Of a stretch of DNA of 64,000 nt, positions 8,055 through 55,109 are shown in pieces. The number at the start of each line of letters is the position of its first letter. The stretch's first letter is position 1. The notes beneath the pieces are model-generated. The model ran no database searches. It saw nothing but the letters and a program-made list of their open reading frames with translations, and was not told the origin of the DNA. The translations under genes were made by a program, and so were the position numbers. This stretch comes from Sulfurospirillum deleyianum DSM 6946 (GTDB lineage: Bacteria; Campylobacterota; Campylobacteria; Campylobacterales; Sulfurospirillaceae): assembly GCF_000024885.1 (NCBI RefSeq), contig NC_013512.1, forward strand, positions 1,674,001-1,738,000. Direction: 5' to 3'.

Positions 8055-10007
8055 TTAAAGCTTACAGCTCTCATTTAAACGATACCCAACAACCCACCAT
8101 CCAAGCGTTAGAATAATAGCGCCTAAAAAGCCATTGAAGGTCAATAAACAAAAAAGCCCGATAACCATCGCAATCATTCCTAAGATATAGCTTCCTGAAA
8201 GCACCGCAAAAAAGGCAATCACACTCCCTGCGATACCGCTATAATTGAGATAAATCACCTTCCCTAAGATAGCTCTGAATTGACATATGGGCAACAAAGG
8301 CTCTGTGGCACACACACTCACCAGCGACTCTTTAACATAAATGCCCTCTTTGATAAGCACAAATACAATAGCACTCGCAATCAGCACTAAAAAACTTTTC
8401 GTAATGCCACACAATTTGGCACGAGATAGCCACAACGTAGATCCAAACACAACAACTAAAACCACCCAATTCAAAGCAAATCCATTACGAGCGCTCTCTT
8501 GTTGTAGCACCACCAGCGCACACACAAATAAGCTCAATCCACTCATTTTTTCCATCATCCCATTGAGCGCCAAACGCTCCGTACTCATATAGGAGAGCGC
8601 ATAACTCATGGCAATAATCGCTAACACACCCAACTCAAAATTAAGATAACGTCCATCAAAGGCTAAAGAGAGTGCCATAATCAACACAATGCTAACGCTC
8701 AATAAATGCAACACATCTTCCCAAAAGGTTTCTCCTTTGGGGGCACTCAATGTTATCACTTGCATACATCGCATCATTGAACCACGCATTGAAATCTCAT
8801 CGGTCATCACATATTGCACCACTTTAAGCCACAAGATAAAGGCAACACTTAAACAAACAATCGCCCATGCGTACTCTAAGGTATTGCGAGAAACAATCCA
8901 ATACATATTGGCTTGCCACGCAAGTGCGACAGCTCCACCAAACAAAGAAATAAACCATATGGGTGCTTTTTTACAGCTACATGTAGGCAGTCCCCACAGC
9001 CAAATCAATCCGACAAGAGACAACATAAAACTTCCTAAAAACAGCCAAAGGGCATTGGGAAAATTAGAGACAAATCCATGCAAAATATGCTTATCCATAC
9101 GGTTAGCATCAAAAAGTCCCCAATATCCGCCAACGGCTCCCTCACTCAAACGCTTCCACGGCTGGTCAAACGCTTCGATAAAGTTGTACTTCCAACCATT
9201 CTCTTCTGCCATTTTGACAAAACCACGTGTGAAAATAGCTTGATTGAGCGCACTTGGATACGCACCTTCTCGCATTCGCCCCTCACTTGGCCACCCTGTT
9301 TCCCCAATGACAATCTCTTTATCATTAATTTTCTGTGTCATTTCATCATAAATATTTTTTACATGTAAAAGGGCTTTATCCACGCTAATGGGCTGATCTT
9401 CCCAATAAGGCAAAATATGAATTGTCACACGATCCACTGAGGGAGCAATTTCAGGATGTTTATTCCAAAACTCCCAAACATCAGCATACGTTACCTTCAT
9501 ATCAGGCAAAGCACGTTTGACTTGTTCAATATACCCTACCAACTGAGAAGCACTCACATCACGGCGTAAAAGCGCTTCATTCCCCACCACAACAGTTTCA
9601 ACACTTTCTCGATACTCTTTGGCTAAAGCAATAACAGTATCAATCTCTTTTTGCGTCATTTTTGCATCATTACTGATCCAAGCACCTAGCCATAATTTCA
9701 GCCCATGTTTGCGCGCGATTTCAGGAAGTGCCTCAAGCCCAACACTCGAATAGGTACGAATACAGTTGGTCAAAGTCGAAAGTTTTGCCAAATCCCCTTC
9801 CATCTGCTCTTTAGAAGGTCGAAATCCTTTAGCGATATCAAACGGTGAGTCATCTTTCCCAAAAGGGGCGTAAGAGAGACATTGTAACTTTACATCATCA
9901 GGTAAGGTGATCAAATCATTGGAGGGCTTTGCCATCCAAAACCAAAACAACCCCAACGAGAGAAACATGGTAATGTAAAAAAGAACGATTTTAACGGCAT
10001 GACTCAT
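8055..10007 (-). CDS. GH17-family beta-glucan-active membrane protein
   Basis: 650 aa. An N-terminal membrane anchor (residues 5-25) leads into an extracytoplasmic GH17-like domain (about 40-320) with both expected acids: acid/base Glu144 in VVVGNEALL and nucleophile Glu236 in VIGETGWPSEG. The block EAFDQPWK...GGYWGLFD is shared with the GH17-GT2 fusion at 52575-55109. Residues 330-645 are almost all hydrophobic and form roughly ten TM helices with no recognisable glycosyltransferase. GH17 enzymes hydrolyse or transglycosylate beta-1,3-glucans; the bradyrhizobial Ndv proteins are the closest functional model I know. A role in trimming or branching a glucan made by the 52575 product is inferred. 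Own promoter at 10037-10042. Confidence 0.82.
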   Translation of the reverse strand: MSHAVKIVLFYITMFLSLGLFWFWMAKPSNDLITLPDDVKLQCLSYAPFGKDDSPFDIAKGFRPSKEQMEGDLAKLSTLTNCIRTYSSVGLEALPEIARKHGLKLWLGAWISNDAKMTQKEIDTVIALAKEYRESVETVVVGNEALLRRDVSASQLVGYIEQVKRALPDMKVTYADVWEFWNKHPEIAPSVDRVTIHILPYWEDQPISVDKALLHVKNIYDEMTQKINDKEIVIGETGWPSEGRMREGAYPSALNQAIFTRGFVKMAEENGWKYNFIEAFDQPWKRLSEGAVGGYWGLFDANRMDKHILHGFVSNFPNALWLFLGSFMLSLVGLIWLWGLPTCSCKKAPIWFISLFGGAVALAWQANMYWIVSRNTLEYAWAIVCLSVAFILWLKVVQYVMTDEISMRGSMMRCMQVITLSAPKGETFWEDVLHLLSVSIVLIMALSLAFDGRYLNFELGVLAIIAMSYALSYMSTERLALNGMMEKMSGLSLFVCALVVLQQESARNGFALNWVVLVVVFGSTLWLSRAKLCGITKSFLVLIASAIVFVLIKEGIYVKESLVSVCATEPLLPICQFRAILGKVIYLNYSGIAGSVIAFFAVLSGSYILGMIAMVIGLFCLLTFNGFLGAIILTLGWWVVGYRLNESCKL

Positions 10008-50175: not shown

Positions 50176-52464
50176 GTGGCAATTATCAAAAAAAATATTT
50201 GGTTTATTTTTTACGTTTTATGCGTAACTGCCACCTTCTTATTTGGTGTGCTTTGCTATGTTACATGGCAAAATACCTCCCAAAAGTATCAAGCTTCCCA
50301 AGAGAATATTGTCGAACTGATGGCGAACGCCACACACTCTTTGTTTGATACCCACGAACGACTCATTGATATTTTAGGCTCAGCTATCCTAGAGCATATA
50401 GATGATAAAAACCCTAAAATTGCCATTGACAAACACGCACAATCCCTACTTCAAAATCCTGAGATGGTTGCCCTAGGTGTCACAACACCACAAGGAGATT
50501 TTATCTACGCAAGTTCTGATGATAATCCCAAAAATATACCCAATCTCCTTGCCCTTCCAGAAACACGAGACTCTTTCATTCAAGCATTGGCATCTCATGG
50601 CATGGTTTTTGGACGCACCTATTTTTCACCCCCTTTACAAAAATGGGGTATGCCCATTCGTAAAACGATTCGCAATGAAGCAGGTGAAGCACAATTTGTT
50701 ATTACCACGGTACTGAAACATACCAGCACCTTTGATGCGCTTTTAACCACGTTAAAACACCGTCACTATCTTAATCTCTCGGTGATAAGAGACCATGACT
50801 TCCATTACCAATACCATTCCAATGGGCATAAAGATTACGAAAAAGTTTACAACACGCCTTTTCCTCAATCAACCCTCGAAAAACTTTTTACAACCATTTT
50901 TGATCGCTATGGTATCACCCCTAGGGAGCTCAAAGAGAACCAACTTTTAGTCTCTTCTGTATACCAAGAAGGAAAAAAAGGCTACTACCTTGCTTCATTA
51001 AAATATAATCACACCTACCATCTCTGGACACTTTCTCAAACACCGCTTAGCGTTATCGTGAAAGATTTTACTCAAAAAGTTTCTCTTTATTTTCTAATTT
51101 TTGTAGCGATTGGTAGTATTTTCTTTTACCTCTTCCGTCTTATTGCCAAAGCAGAAGAGAAACGCCATGCTGATTTAATCGAACAAGCAACCCATGACCC
51201 ACTGACCTTACTTCCTAATCGCCACTTTTTACATCAAAACATCCACCAATGGATTTATCCTAAGGCCCCCATGTTTAGTCTTTTATATATTGATATGGAT
51301 TATTTCAAAAATATCAATGATAGTTTTGGGCACCATTTAGGCGATGAAGTTCTCATTGACATTGCCAAACGACTCGCACAGATAGCCCCCAAAGATTCTT
51401 TAATCGTACGGCATGGAGGCGATGAGTTTCTTCTTTTAACGCATATGTATGAACATCACGAACTGTTGAGCTTCGCCTCACACCTCATCGAGTCTCTTTC
51501 TCAACCTTATGAAATTCACCAGTTTCACTTTACTATTGGTGCGAGTGTGGGCATTGCCCGCTATCCTGAGCATGGAGAAACCCTTGATGCTTTACTTCGA
51601 GCCTCCGATATTGCCATGTACACCTCCAAAAAAATTAAAAACAGTGCCCATATTTTTGCCAATGAGATGCAAGAGGGCTTTTTAAAAAATATCACCATGG
51701 AGCAAGAACTTAGAAAAGCCATCAAAAATAATGAACTTTTTATGGTTTACCAACCGCAAGTCGATACACAAGGAAACGTTTTTGGCGTTGAAGCTTTGGT
51801 ACGATGGAACAGCACAGCTTTTGGAAAACTCGTACCTCCAGACCAATTTATTCCTTTGGCCGAGGCGACAGGATTAATGCCTAAATTAGGTCGTCTGATT
51901 TTTGAAACCGCTTGCTATGATATTGCTGCGCTTGAGCAAGAACTCAAACGAAGTTTACAAATTTCCTTAAATGTTTCCGTGCGTCAATTTATGGATCCCC
52001 TATTTTTGGAAGATTTGTTAAATATATTGGATAAAACAGACTTACATACGCTCAATATCACACTAGAAGTCACGGAAAATCTTTTTATTGAAGAGTTACA
52101 CTATATAGTGCCTCTCTTAGAAAAAATCAAATCCTTAGGCATTCAGATTTCTATGGATGATTTTGGTACAGGCTACTCGTCTTTAAGTATGTTGCGCCAA
52201 CTGCCTATTGATGAGCTTAAAATTGATAAAAGCTTTGTCTATACCATTGATAAAGATGAAACATCCGCTAAAATGGTGCAAAACATCATTACCATCGGTA
52301 AAAACCTCAATATGCACATCTTAGCAGAAGGCGTTGAAACCCAAGAACAAAAAGAGCTTTTAACAGCTTTTGGATGTGATCGTTTTCAAGGATACTATTT
52401 CTCAAAACCCTTAAATAAAGAGGCGTTATTAGCATTTCTTAAAAGTTCAGCTTTTTACATGTAA
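50176..52464 (+). CDS. Membrane GGDEF-EAL protein (c-di-GMP synthase/phosphodiesterase)
   Basis: 762 aa from a GTG start preceded by AAAGGAGAT. TM helices at about 9-30 and 302-322 enclose a 270-residue periplasmic sensor of a Cache-like type (GVTTPQGDFIYASS, GMPIRKTIRNEAG, YYLASLKY). The GGDEF domain is intact (DMDYFKNIND, GGDEF 414-418), as is EAL (EAL 539-541, DDFGTGYSSL, LKIDKSF, AEGVET), so either activity is possible. It ends Phe-Tyr-Met-stop, with TAC-ATG-TAA supplied by a TTTACATGTAAA palindrome. The GH17-GT2 gene follows after 110 bp, which suggests control of glucan synthesis. Confidence 0.95.
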   Translation: MAIIKKNIWFIFYVLCVTATFLFGVLCYVTWQNTSQKYQASQENIVELMANATHSLFDTHERLIDILGSAILEHIDDKNPKIAIDKHAQSLLQNPEMVALGVTTPQGDFIYASSDDNPKNIPNLLALPETRDSFIQALASHGMVFGRTYFSPPLQKWGMPIRKTIRNEAGEAQFVITTVLKHTSTFDALLTTLKHRHYLNLSVIRDHDFHYQYHSNGHKDYEKVYNTPFPQSTLEKLFTTIFDRYGITPRELKENQLLVSSVYQEGKKGYYLASLKYNHTYHLWTLSQTPLSVIVKDFTQKVSLYFLIFVAIGSIFFYLFRLIAKAEEKRHADLIEQATHDPLTLLPNRHFLHQNIHQWIYPKAPMFSLLYIDMDYFKNINDSFGHHLGDEVLIDIAKRLAQIAPKDSLIVRHGGDEFLLLTHMYEHHELLSFASHLIESLSQPYEIHQFHFTIGASVGIARYPEHGETLDALLRASDIAMYTSKKIKNSAHIFANEMQEGFLKNITMEQELRKAIKNNELFMVYQPQVDTQGNVFGVEALVRWNSTAFGKLVPPDQFIPLAEATGLMPKLGRLIFETACYDIAALEQELKRSLQISLNVSVRQFMDPLFLEDLLNILDKTDLHTLNITLEVTENLFIEELHYIVPLLEKIKSLGIQISMDDFGTGYSSLSMLRQLPIDELKIDKSFVYTIDKDETSAKMVQNIITIGKNLNMHILAEGVETQEQKELLTAFGCDRFQGYYFSKPLNKEALLAFLKSSAFYM

Positions 52465-52574
52465 AGATTGATACCTCATTTTTTAAACAAAATTGTTGTA
52501 AAATCATTCGATTTTTGCGACTATTTTCAAACATCCGTCACACAAAATCTACCATATCCTTTCGGAGCACTCGA

Positions 52575-55109
52575 TTGAAATACTTTAAATATGTCCTACT
52601 TTCAATGATTTTAAGCTCTCTTGTACACGTTTTTTTATGGACAAGAGGTGGCGATAAAATCGTTACATCTCCTCAAATTGGAGACAAGATAGAATCCCTC
52701 TCTTACACACCATATCGGGGCTTTGAAAAAGCACCTAAAAGCGATGAAGAGATTGCGCAAGATATGAAAACCGTTGAAAATATTGCACGTAAAGTCAGAA
52801 CTTACGCCATTGATGATGCCAAACGGGTTTTGAGCAATGTGGACGATACCAAGCTTAAAGTTGATATTGGACTATGGCTTTCAGGCGATAAAGGAGCAAA
52901 CGAATATGAAATGGAGAAGCTTTTTGAATTAACCAAATTTTATTATCCTCGCATTGCTTCTATCATTGTAGGAAACGAGGTACTTTTACGTGCTGATTTA
53001 ACACCTGAAGAGCTGATGGAGTACATCGACCGTGTTTCCAAACGTACCCGTATTCCTGTCACCACAGCAGAAGTTCAACATGTCTGGCTTACCAATAAAG
53101 AATTGGCTAACCATGTTGATTTTATCAATGTCCATATTCTTCCTTACTGGGAGAAAATCCCTATAGAGCAAACCCTTGCTTTTGCCAAAGAAAAATACGA
53201 CGCCATCGCTGAGATGTATCCTAAAAAGCCCATTACTATCGGGGAGTTTGGTTGGCCTAGCAGTGGATACAACAACGAAAAAGCTGAAGCCACACTCACC
53301 AACCAAATTGCTGCTATTACAGGCTTTTTGGAAATGGCACGTGAACTGAAATGGAGTTATAACATCGTTGAAGCATTTGATCAGCCATGGAAAGGGGTTC
53401 ATGAGGGAAGTGTAGGACCATACTGGGGGCTTTTTGATATTAACAAACAACCTAAATTTCACTTTGTCAAGCAGACGATTTTAAATCCTCTCTGGCGCTA
53501 TCAAATGGCAGCCTCTGTTTTCTTTGGTCTGCTCCTCACTTTCTTTGGACTTCGCAACCAACGGGTCAACTTTGCTCATGCGCTTACCTATGGTTTTGCA
53601 GCGCAAGCGATGGGCTTTGGTATTGCTATGGCAGCCACCTATCCGTTTATTTACTACATGAATTTTGGTATGTGGGTCATGTGGACCATGGGAATTTTTC
53701 TAATGATTCCTTTGGTGATTATCACCCTTGCAAAGATTAATGAACTCTTTAAATGTACCCTAGGCATTGCTCCTAAACGCTTAGCTCCTCTGAATCTCAA
53801 ATCGGATCATGTTCCTTTTGTCTCTATTCATGTTCCCGCCTATAAAGAACAACCTCATGTTCTTATTGAGACCCTAGATTCACTTGCAAAACTTAAATAC
53901 ACCAATTACGAAGTTTTAGTGGTCATTAACAACACACCTGAGGAGTTTTACTGGAAGCCGATTGAAGAGCATTGTGCAAAACTAGGTGAAAAATTTGTCT
54001 TTTTAAACATTACATGTAAAGGGTTTAAAGCAGGTGCGCTCAACGAAGCACTTAAATACACCCATGAAAAAGCAGAAATTTTAGCGGTCATTGACGCAGA
54101 TTATGTTGTGGGTGATAACTGGCTGATTGATTTGGTTCCTTTGTTTGATGACCCAAAAGTTGCCCTTGTTCAAGCGCCGCAAGACCACAGAGATGGCAAT
54201 GAATCACTGATAAAACAAGCCATGAATGCCGAATATGCAGGATTTTTTGATATCGGAATGGTGGAGCGAAATGAAGAAAATGCCATTGTAGCGCATGGAA
54301 CGATGCTTATGGCACGCCTTTCCGCTATGCATGAAGTGGGCGATTGGACAACCTATACCATCGTGGAAGATTCCGAGCTGGGTCTTCGTCTTTTTGAGGC
54401 AGGATACACCGCACACTACACGAACAGGCGCTATGGCTGGGGATTATTACCTGACACTGTGGAAGCCTTCCGAACACAACGCCATCGCTGGGCATACGGA
54501 GCTATTCAAATTTTAAAACGTCATTGGCGTCATTTTATGCCTTCATCCAAAACGTTAACGCCCTACCAAAAATATCATTTTGTAGCGGGTTGGTTCTTCT
54601 GGCTCTCCGATGCCTTTGGTGCTATGACCGCATTTTTAAATATTTTTTGGGTTCCCTTTATTATTTTTGTAGGCGTCACCATCCCAACGCTTCCTTTAAC
54701 ACTACCGATTGTCGTCGCCTTTTTGGTCAACATTTTACATGCCTTTATTTTGTATCGCACACGGGTTAAAATGGGCATTAAAGAGACTGTTTTAAGTGCG
54801 ATTGCCTCTATGAGTTTGCAGTTGGTTATCTTTAAAGCCGTCTATGATGGATTTGTTAAAGATGGTCTTCCTTTTAAACGAACTGAAAAAGGTGGCAATA
54901 CTAAAAAAACCAATACCAATCCCATCCGTCATGAGATGATTTTAGCAAGTTTGCTGACCATCGCCTTTTTTGCGCTCTATTTCACCAACTTTACACGCAT
55001 TACAGAGATTTATGTTTTTGCCTTTACGTTGCTGATTCAAAGTATCCCTTATTACTCAGCGATTATCTTACGTATTATCGAGCTTCAATCCCTTAAACCT
55101 AAAAAGTAG
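52575..55109 (+). CDS. GH17-GT2 fusion: putative processive beta-glucan synthase with glucanase/transglycosylase domain
   Basis: 844 aa from TTG 52575, chosen for GGAG 7 nt upstream; the frame stays open to TTG 52515. After an N-terminal anchor comes a GH17 domain with Glu135 (IIVGNEVLL) and Glu224 (TIGEFGWPSSG), then helices (about 310-390), then a GT2 domain with Asp507/Asp509 (VIDADYVVG), TIVEDSEL (about 595) and QRHRW (635), the motifs of processive synthases, and four to five C-terminal helices. This architecture is similar in parts to rhizobial/pseudomonad Ndv glucan synthases. It probably makes beta-1,3 or 1,3/1,6-glucan and remodels it outside the membrane. No PilZ domain is visible. 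Shares its GH17 block with the protein at 8055. Confidence 0.85.
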   Translation: MKYFKYVLLSMILSSLVHVFLWTRGGDKIVTSPQIGDKIESLSYTPYRGFEKAPKSDEEIAQDMKTVENIARKVRTYAIDDAKRVLSNVDDTKLKVDIGLWLSGDKGANEYEMEKLFELTKFYYPRIASIIVGNEVLLRADLTPEELMEYIDRVSKRTRIPVTTAEVQHVWLTNKELANHVDFINVHILPYWEKIPIEQTLAFAKEKYDAIAEMYPKKPITIGEFGWPSSGYNNEKAEATLTNQIAAITGFLEMARELKWSYNIVEAFDQPWKGVHEGSVGPYWGLFDINKQPKFHFVKQTILNPLWRYQMAASVFFGLLLTFFGLRNQRVNFAHALTYGFAAQAMGFGIAMAATYPFIYYMNFGMWVMWTMGIFLMIPLVIITLAKINELFKCTLGIAPKRLAPLNLKSDHVPFVSIHVPAYKEQPHVLIETLDSLAKLKYTNYEVLVVINNTPEEFYWKPIEEHCAKLGEKFVFLNITCKGFKAGALNEALKYTHEKAEILAVIDADYVVGDNWLIDLVPLFDDPKVALVQAPQDHRDGNESLIKQAMNAEYAGFFDIGMVERNEENAIVAHGTMLMARLSAMHEVGDWTTYTIVEDSELGLRLFEAGYTAHYTNRRYGWGLLPDTVEAFRTQRHRWAYGAIQILKRHWRHFMPSSKTLTPYQKYHFVAGWFFWLSDAFGAMTAFLNIFWVPFIIFVGVTIPTLPLTLPIVVAFLVNILHAFILYRTRVKMGIKETVLSAIASMSLQLVIFKAVYDGFVKDGLPFKRTEKGGNTKKTNTNPIRHEMILASLLTIAFFALYFTNFTRITEIYVFAFTLLIQSIPYYSAIILRIIELQSLKPKK

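Follow-up and report, generated by a model that had tools for sequence, protein, structure and literature searches.

Periplasmic glucans play a part in osmotic adaptation, in host signalling and in the binding of antibiotics within biofilms. Those of group 4 are made by NdvB, in which a GT2 glycosyltransferase is joined to a GH17 domain, together with NdvC (PMC10514313). In proteins of this type GH17 acts as a beta-1,3-glucan transglycosylase, according to the enzymology of isolated domains summarised in PMC11005184, and cutting and re-joining of the glucan by GH17 in the periplasm has been proposed for Pseudomonas NdvB (PMC10237404); the P. aeruginosa study PMC2997053 is also counted here for the ndvB/ndvC reading. 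The products of characterised GH17 homologues vary, both in linkage (beta-1,3, beta-1,4 or beta-1,6) and in whether the chain is elongated or branched (PMC11005184). An ndvC mutant of Bradyrhizobium japonicum has severely reduced beta-1,6 linkages (PMC4881576). For Campylobacterota, a homologue from Arcobacter butzleri ED-1 was modelled in 2023, in a paper that also drew a clade of Alpha- plus Epsilonproteobacteria (PMC10237404).

The window analysed here is a stretch of 64,000 nucleotides (positions 1,674,001-1,738,000) of the single-contig, 2,306,351-base genome of the sulfur-reducing bacterium Sulfurospirillum deleyianum DSM 6946. It contains two genes of this kind, an ndvB-like GH17-GT2 fusion and an ndvC-like gene, with the following features (nucleotide positions are those of the window).

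50176-52464, plus strand: GGDEF-EAL gene immediately preceding ndvB, retained by only part of the Sulfurospirillum genomes
52564-52567, plus strand: GGAG, likely ribosome-binding site of ndvB, read directly from the sequence
52575-55109, plus strand: ndvB-like gene, 844 aa, membrane protein with GH17 N-terminal to a processive GT2
NdvB residues about 3-22: N-terminal membrane anchor
NdvB residues about 26-320: GH17 domain, presumably periplasmic
52971-52979, plus strand: GNE (VGNE) motif of GH17 with acid/base E135, invariant in the NdvB alignment
53244-53258, plus strand: EFGWP motif of GH17 with nucleophile E224, invariant in the NdvB alignment
NdvB residues about 305-395: membrane helices between GH17 and GT2
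NdvB residues about 413-660: GT2 domain, presumably cytoplasmic, followed by C-terminal membrane helices
54093-54104, plus strand: DADY, the D-x-D motif of GT2 (D507, D509), invariant in the NdvB alignment
54477-54491, plus strand: QRHRW, processive GT2 synthase motif (residues 635-639), in 35/35 Campylobacterota NdvB
8055-10007, minus strand: ndvC-like gene, 650 aa, membrane-anchored GH17 protein
NdvC residues 2-26: N-terminal anchor
NdvC residues about 40-310: GH17 domain with glutamates E144 and E236
NdvC residues 318-649: multi-helix membrane region of about ten helices
8055-8432, minus strand: C-terminal membrane part of NdvC (about residues 526-650), absent from the compared NdvC of other phyla

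The open frame of the ndvB-like gene begins at 52515, and the TTG at 52575 is its best-fitting start, because GGAG lies 7 nt upstream and the alignment of Sulfurospirillum NdvB orthologues begins at this residue. The GT2 assignment is unambiguous in Pfam (PF13641, 82.6 bits; PF13632, 83 bits), and the C-terminal part of the protein leads to cellulose synthases in phmmer. The GH17 domain stays under the Pfam cut-off (22.5 vs 28.2 bits); it is nevertheless secured by the match of the N-terminal part to 4wtp, the structure of a GH17 beta-1,3-glucanosyltransferase (phmmer, E 4.7e-20), and by the presence of both catalytic glutamates. The GT2 domain also has the VED motif, and the catalytic residues of the GH17 and GT2 motifs are invariant across the aligned NdvB, so that the protein has the NdvB arrangement of an N-terminal GH17 with both glutamates and a processive GT2 (D-x-D, ED, QxxRW). 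A hydrophobic anchor precedes GH17 and helices stand on both sides of GT2, as would fit a periplasmic GH17 and a cytoplasmic GT2 linked by a membrane channel; the AlphaFold model is poor (mean pLDDT 48, pTM 0.32, from a shallow alignment of 11 sequences) and was not used for topology.

The fusion is homologous along its full length to named NdvB proteins and clusters with them, having 41-42% identity to the NdvB of Bradyrhizobium, 41% to that of Afipia and 37% to that of P. aeruginosa, with 54-59% in the GT2 core (57-59% for the alphaproteobacterial proteins). Full-length GH17-GT2 fusions of 36-42% identity were found in genomes of Bradyrhizobium, Afipia, Dyella and Humidesulfovibrio, the alphaproteobacterial ones being closest. 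When plasmids were searched by tblastn, more than 80% of the fusion was matched by a single record, in which a P. aeruginosa megaplasmid carries a gene annotated as ndvB (37% identity over 95%). An 847-kb conjugative plasmid (L070, NZ_CP131792.1) carries a chromosome-like P. aeruginosa ndvB-dapE block. Within Campylobacterota, one genome has two full NdvB fusions (G241:C1:474658-477213 and G241:C7:160315-162873) and no NdvC, and in family f17 an insertion seems to break up the GH17 domain of NdvB, with matches breaking at about residue 172-178 (around NdvB residues 171-179) and frames about 50 aa longer, at 890-942 aa (on G169:C13, G357:C1, G410:C11, G225:C4, G238:C77, G369:C39, G416:C125 and G283:C1).

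The second protein has a GH17 domain above the Pfam cut-off (PF00332, 32 bits), also matching 4wtp in phmmer (E 5.9e-21). Its AlphaFold model is fair (pLDDT 75.7, pTM 0.71), and in a fold search with this model GH17 and other glycosidase barrels were among the top matches, the GH17 part matching 4wtp/4wtr (TM-score of 0.81 on target for 4wtp); the same search gave no match for the membrane region. Profile comparison shows homology between the multi-helix tail and the same region of NdvC from Parvibaculum (97%, E 1e-11), with 92% for Afipia NdvC (in a group that also holds Bradyrhizobium copies linked to ndvB) and for Dyella NdvC, and 60% for other Bradyrhizobium ndvC copies; no homology to deltaproteobacterial and Azospirillum proteins was detected by this comparison, and the NdvB tail, used as a control, gave 0.1%. 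The tail has 321-349 aa in Campylobacterota vs 221-266 in Bradyrhizobium, Afipia, Parvibaculum, Dyella and deltaproteobacteria, and the profile matches stop near tail position 225, the Campylobacterota NdvC being about 80-110 residues longer C-terminally. Extra ndvC-like genes away from ndvB were also observed in Bradyrhizobium (L071:10061-11602, on a B. barranii plasmid; L096, L114 and L166), and one of them lies close to insertion sequences on a conjugative plasmid.

Searched with PF00332, the complete genome gave only these two genes, and the original prediction of two GH17 proteins with common catalytic motifs, one of them fused to GT2, is borne out by the Pfam and phmmer matches and by the glutamate pairs of NdvB (E135/E224) and NdvC (E144/E236). 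The GH17 domains of NdvB and NdvC share 36% identity (BLASTP E 2e-54 over 331 aa), a likeness that therefore is not due to chance. The EAFDQPWK block, previously singled out as shared by the two proteins, is present in both but is not private to them, since EA[FIY]DQPWK occurs in 30/35 Campylobacterota NdvB, 34/34 Campylobacterota NdvC and 21/21 other NdvB. The GH17 domain of NdvC is 46-49% identical to those of Bradyrhizobium and Afipia NdvC vs 36% to the NdvB of its own genome. In a quick GH17 tree of 78 rows, with SH-aLRT but no bootstrap values and with long branches flagged by the program, all 29 NdvB are apart from all 49 NdvC (SH-aLRT 95), and Campylobacterota are monophyletic on both the NdvB and the NdvC side (SH-aLRT 100 each). 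As judged from this tree, the separation of the two types is older than the diversification of the sequences sampled from the two phyla, and an origin of NdvC as a recent duplicate of NdvB was rejected on this ground. The GH17 domain of the second protein is thus that of an NdvC orthologue and does not derive from the NdvB of its own genome; the C-terminal multi-helix region is homologous to that of NdvC as well.

Both genes are present in the 23/23 Sulfurospirillum congeners sampled. The survey of co-occurrence that had been suggested with the original prediction gave a one-way pattern. Among 397 Campylobacterota genomes, NdvB was found in 51 and NdvC in 43, all 43 also having NdvB, with NdvB alone in eight; among 289 Alphaproteobacteria genomes, 58 had NdvB and 38 the NdvC type, again always with NdvB (38/38), leaving 20 with NdvB alone. 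These counts are phylogenetically non-independent, so that Fisher values overstate the evidence and the weight is placed on the one-way pattern in two phyla, which supports NdvC working on the product of NdvB. Besides the family of S. deleyianum, families f9 and f17 of Campylobacterota carry the pair.

The 42 kb said to separate the genes correspond to a gap of 42.5 kb in the window, and the two genes are likewise distant in most Campylobacterota. The description of the system as split is thus correct for S. deleyianum but not general, since ndvB and ndvC are head to head, with less than 200 bp between them, in one genome of another genus of the same family (G025), where ndvC is directly followed by the same ABC-F gene that is upstream of ndvB in the window. 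A single genome does not allow the ancestral state to be deduced. Similarly, ndvB and ndvC are head to head in Nitrobacteraceae, with about 1 kb between them, and their matches are at most 1.1 kb apart in 17 Alphaproteobacteria genomes. In Sulfurospirillum, a GGDEF-EAL gene or other sequence fills the place between the ABC-F gene and ndvB, and ndvC is upstream of alaS; in a further genome (G017), ndvB adjoins the ABC-F gene without GGDEF-EAL between them. The GGDEF-EAL gene was considered as an operon regulator of ndvB and rejected, being absent beside ndvB in several Sulfurospirillum, and it is no fixed part of the ndvB/ndvC system.

The proposal of an Ndv-like beta-glucan system is supported, being the reading to which homology, domain architecture, co-occurrence and neighbouring genes all lead. 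Here it is proposed, with a probability of about 0.8, that S. deleyianum has an ndvB/ndvC pair of the type known for group 4 osmoregulated periplasmic glucans, working as synthase and transglycosylase. The cytoplasmic GT2 of NdvB would convert UDP-glucose, which is available because GalU is encoded in the genome, to a beta-1,3-glucan and pass it through its own membrane channel; its GH17 domain on the periplasmic side would then cut and re-join the chain and set free a short glucan that is probably cyclic. NdvC, as a second membrane-anchored GH17 transglycosylase, would act on the NdvB product and introduce or promote beta-1,6 linkages, as kinks or branches. Most likely, the product belongs to the group 4 osmoregulated periplasmic glucans and combines beta-1,3 with beta-1,6 linkages. 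What this scheme says on linkage and ring closure, on the part of NdvC in beta-1,6 bonds, on periplasmic location and on physiology is predicted from the characterised relatives. Because the GT2 sequence leaves the linkage unfixed, as also stated by the authors of PMC10237404, and the characterised GH17 homologues vary in product, the linkage made by either domain is not readable. The group 1 machinery gene MdoG/OpgG (PF04349) was absent from the genome in a search that recovered it in the E. coli control.

In Campylobacter, free oligosaccharides come from the Pgl pathway. The S. deleyianum genome also encodes an STT3/PglB-family oligosaccharyltransferase (L191; G000:C1:1796422-1797537, minus strand), and a Pgl-like N-glycosylation route may operate alongside the glucan system. 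A variant of group 4 glucan specific to Campylobacterota, occurring together with the Pgl free oligosaccharides or in their place, is conceivable, although rather improbable; the extra C-terminal membrane module of NdvC would lead to another linkage in this glucan or to its transfer to an acceptor in the membrane.

The fusion could also make a beta-glucan that the NdvC-type protein, as a beta-1,3-glucanase, hydrolyses in turnover or trimming, instead of forming beta-1,6 linkages as a transglycosylase. GH17 includes laminarinases as well (PMC11005184), and NdvC is dispensable, as seen in the 8 Campylobacterota and 20 Alphaproteobacteria genomes with NdvB only; however, the closest structure by both sequence and fold is that of a beta-1,3-glucanosyltransferase (4wtp/4wtr), and the B. 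japonicum homologue affects beta-1,6 linkages (PMC4881576), which makes a purely hydrolytic role unlikely. Quite unlikely, too, is a GT2 producing a long secreted polysaccharide, similar to cellulose or curdlan, that GH17 trims or releases, with no osmoregulated periplasmic glucan at all. The likeness of GT2 to BcsA and PgaC and the GGDEF-EAL gene directly upstream, here and in some related genomes, would fit such a product. Against it, the fusion scores far under the cut-offs for PgaC (100 vs 422 bits) and BcsA (CelA; 94 vs 699 bits), it has no PilZ domain in Pfam, and its full-length homology is to NdvB; in addition, ndvB abuts the ABC-F gene without GGDEF-EAL in G017, and ndvC occupies that place in G025. 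The same low CelA score and absence of PilZ led to the rejection of a BcsA cellulose synthase identity for the fusion.

It is highly improbable that the two GH17 genes are functionally unrelated, brought together as a recent duplicate within the lineage or as a chance pair. Their distance, 42 kb here and also large in most Campylobacterota, would be in line with this, but the NdvB/NdvC split appears to predate the separation of the sequences sampled from the two phyla, NdvC never occurs without NdvB in the sampled genomes, and the pair is adjacent in the sister genus.

The ndvB/ndvC pair is best regarded as a system of known kind, and the prediction is testable, not surprising. The expectation that it would be new in this lineage needs correcting as regards the fusion: an NdvB-type fusion had already been reported for Arcobacter in 2023 (PMC10237404). 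No report of the glucan was found there. In the literature covered, which is incomplete and leaves out most subscription papers, PMC10237404 was the only paper found for glucans in Sulfurospirillum or Arcobacter, and for Campylobacterota no paper was found that describes NdvC as the partner, how it depends on NdvB, or the glucan itself. A complete pair in this branch makes it possible to test directly and at low cost for a class of glucans of which no report was found there, and bears on the idea that the periplasmic glycans of the lineage derive only from the Pgl pathway.

Among known systems, the cyclic beta-1,2-glucan synthase of rhizobia, also called NdvB or Cgs (PMC11842490), has only the gene name in common with the fusion, being a far larger (about 300 kDa) and different enzyme. 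Bgt17A of Rhizomucor miehei (4wtp), the best PDB match for GH17 by sequence and fold, is a soluble fungal enzyme without a membrane part. The NdvB of P. aeruginosa (PA1163 type) has the same architecture (37% identity over 95%, 54% in the GT2 core); however, it is more distant than the Bradyrhizobium proteins and its neighbour is dapE. The Arcobacter butzleri ED-1 Orphan homologue (Clade 3), AlphaFold-modelled in PMC10237404, shares the phylum and the PF00332-PF13641 architecture, and NdvC is not mentioned in that paper. Similarly to S. deleyianum NdvC, the B. japonicum NdvC carries the homologous multi-helix region behind a membrane-anchored GH17 and is found only with ndvB (34% identity over the full alignment), the S. 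deleyianum protein having the C-terminal extension of about 80-110 residues in addition. The NdvB of Bradyrhizobium and Afipia, a GH17-GT2 synthase of cyclic beta-1,3/1,6-glucan, has the same domain order, length class and catalytic motifs, with the 41-42% identity extending over 840-860 aa and 57-59% in the GT2 core, whereas the C-terminus of the S. deleyianum protein is shorter; there, ndvC is the head-to-head neighbour, in the same order as in G025, while in S. deleyianum it is 42 kb away.
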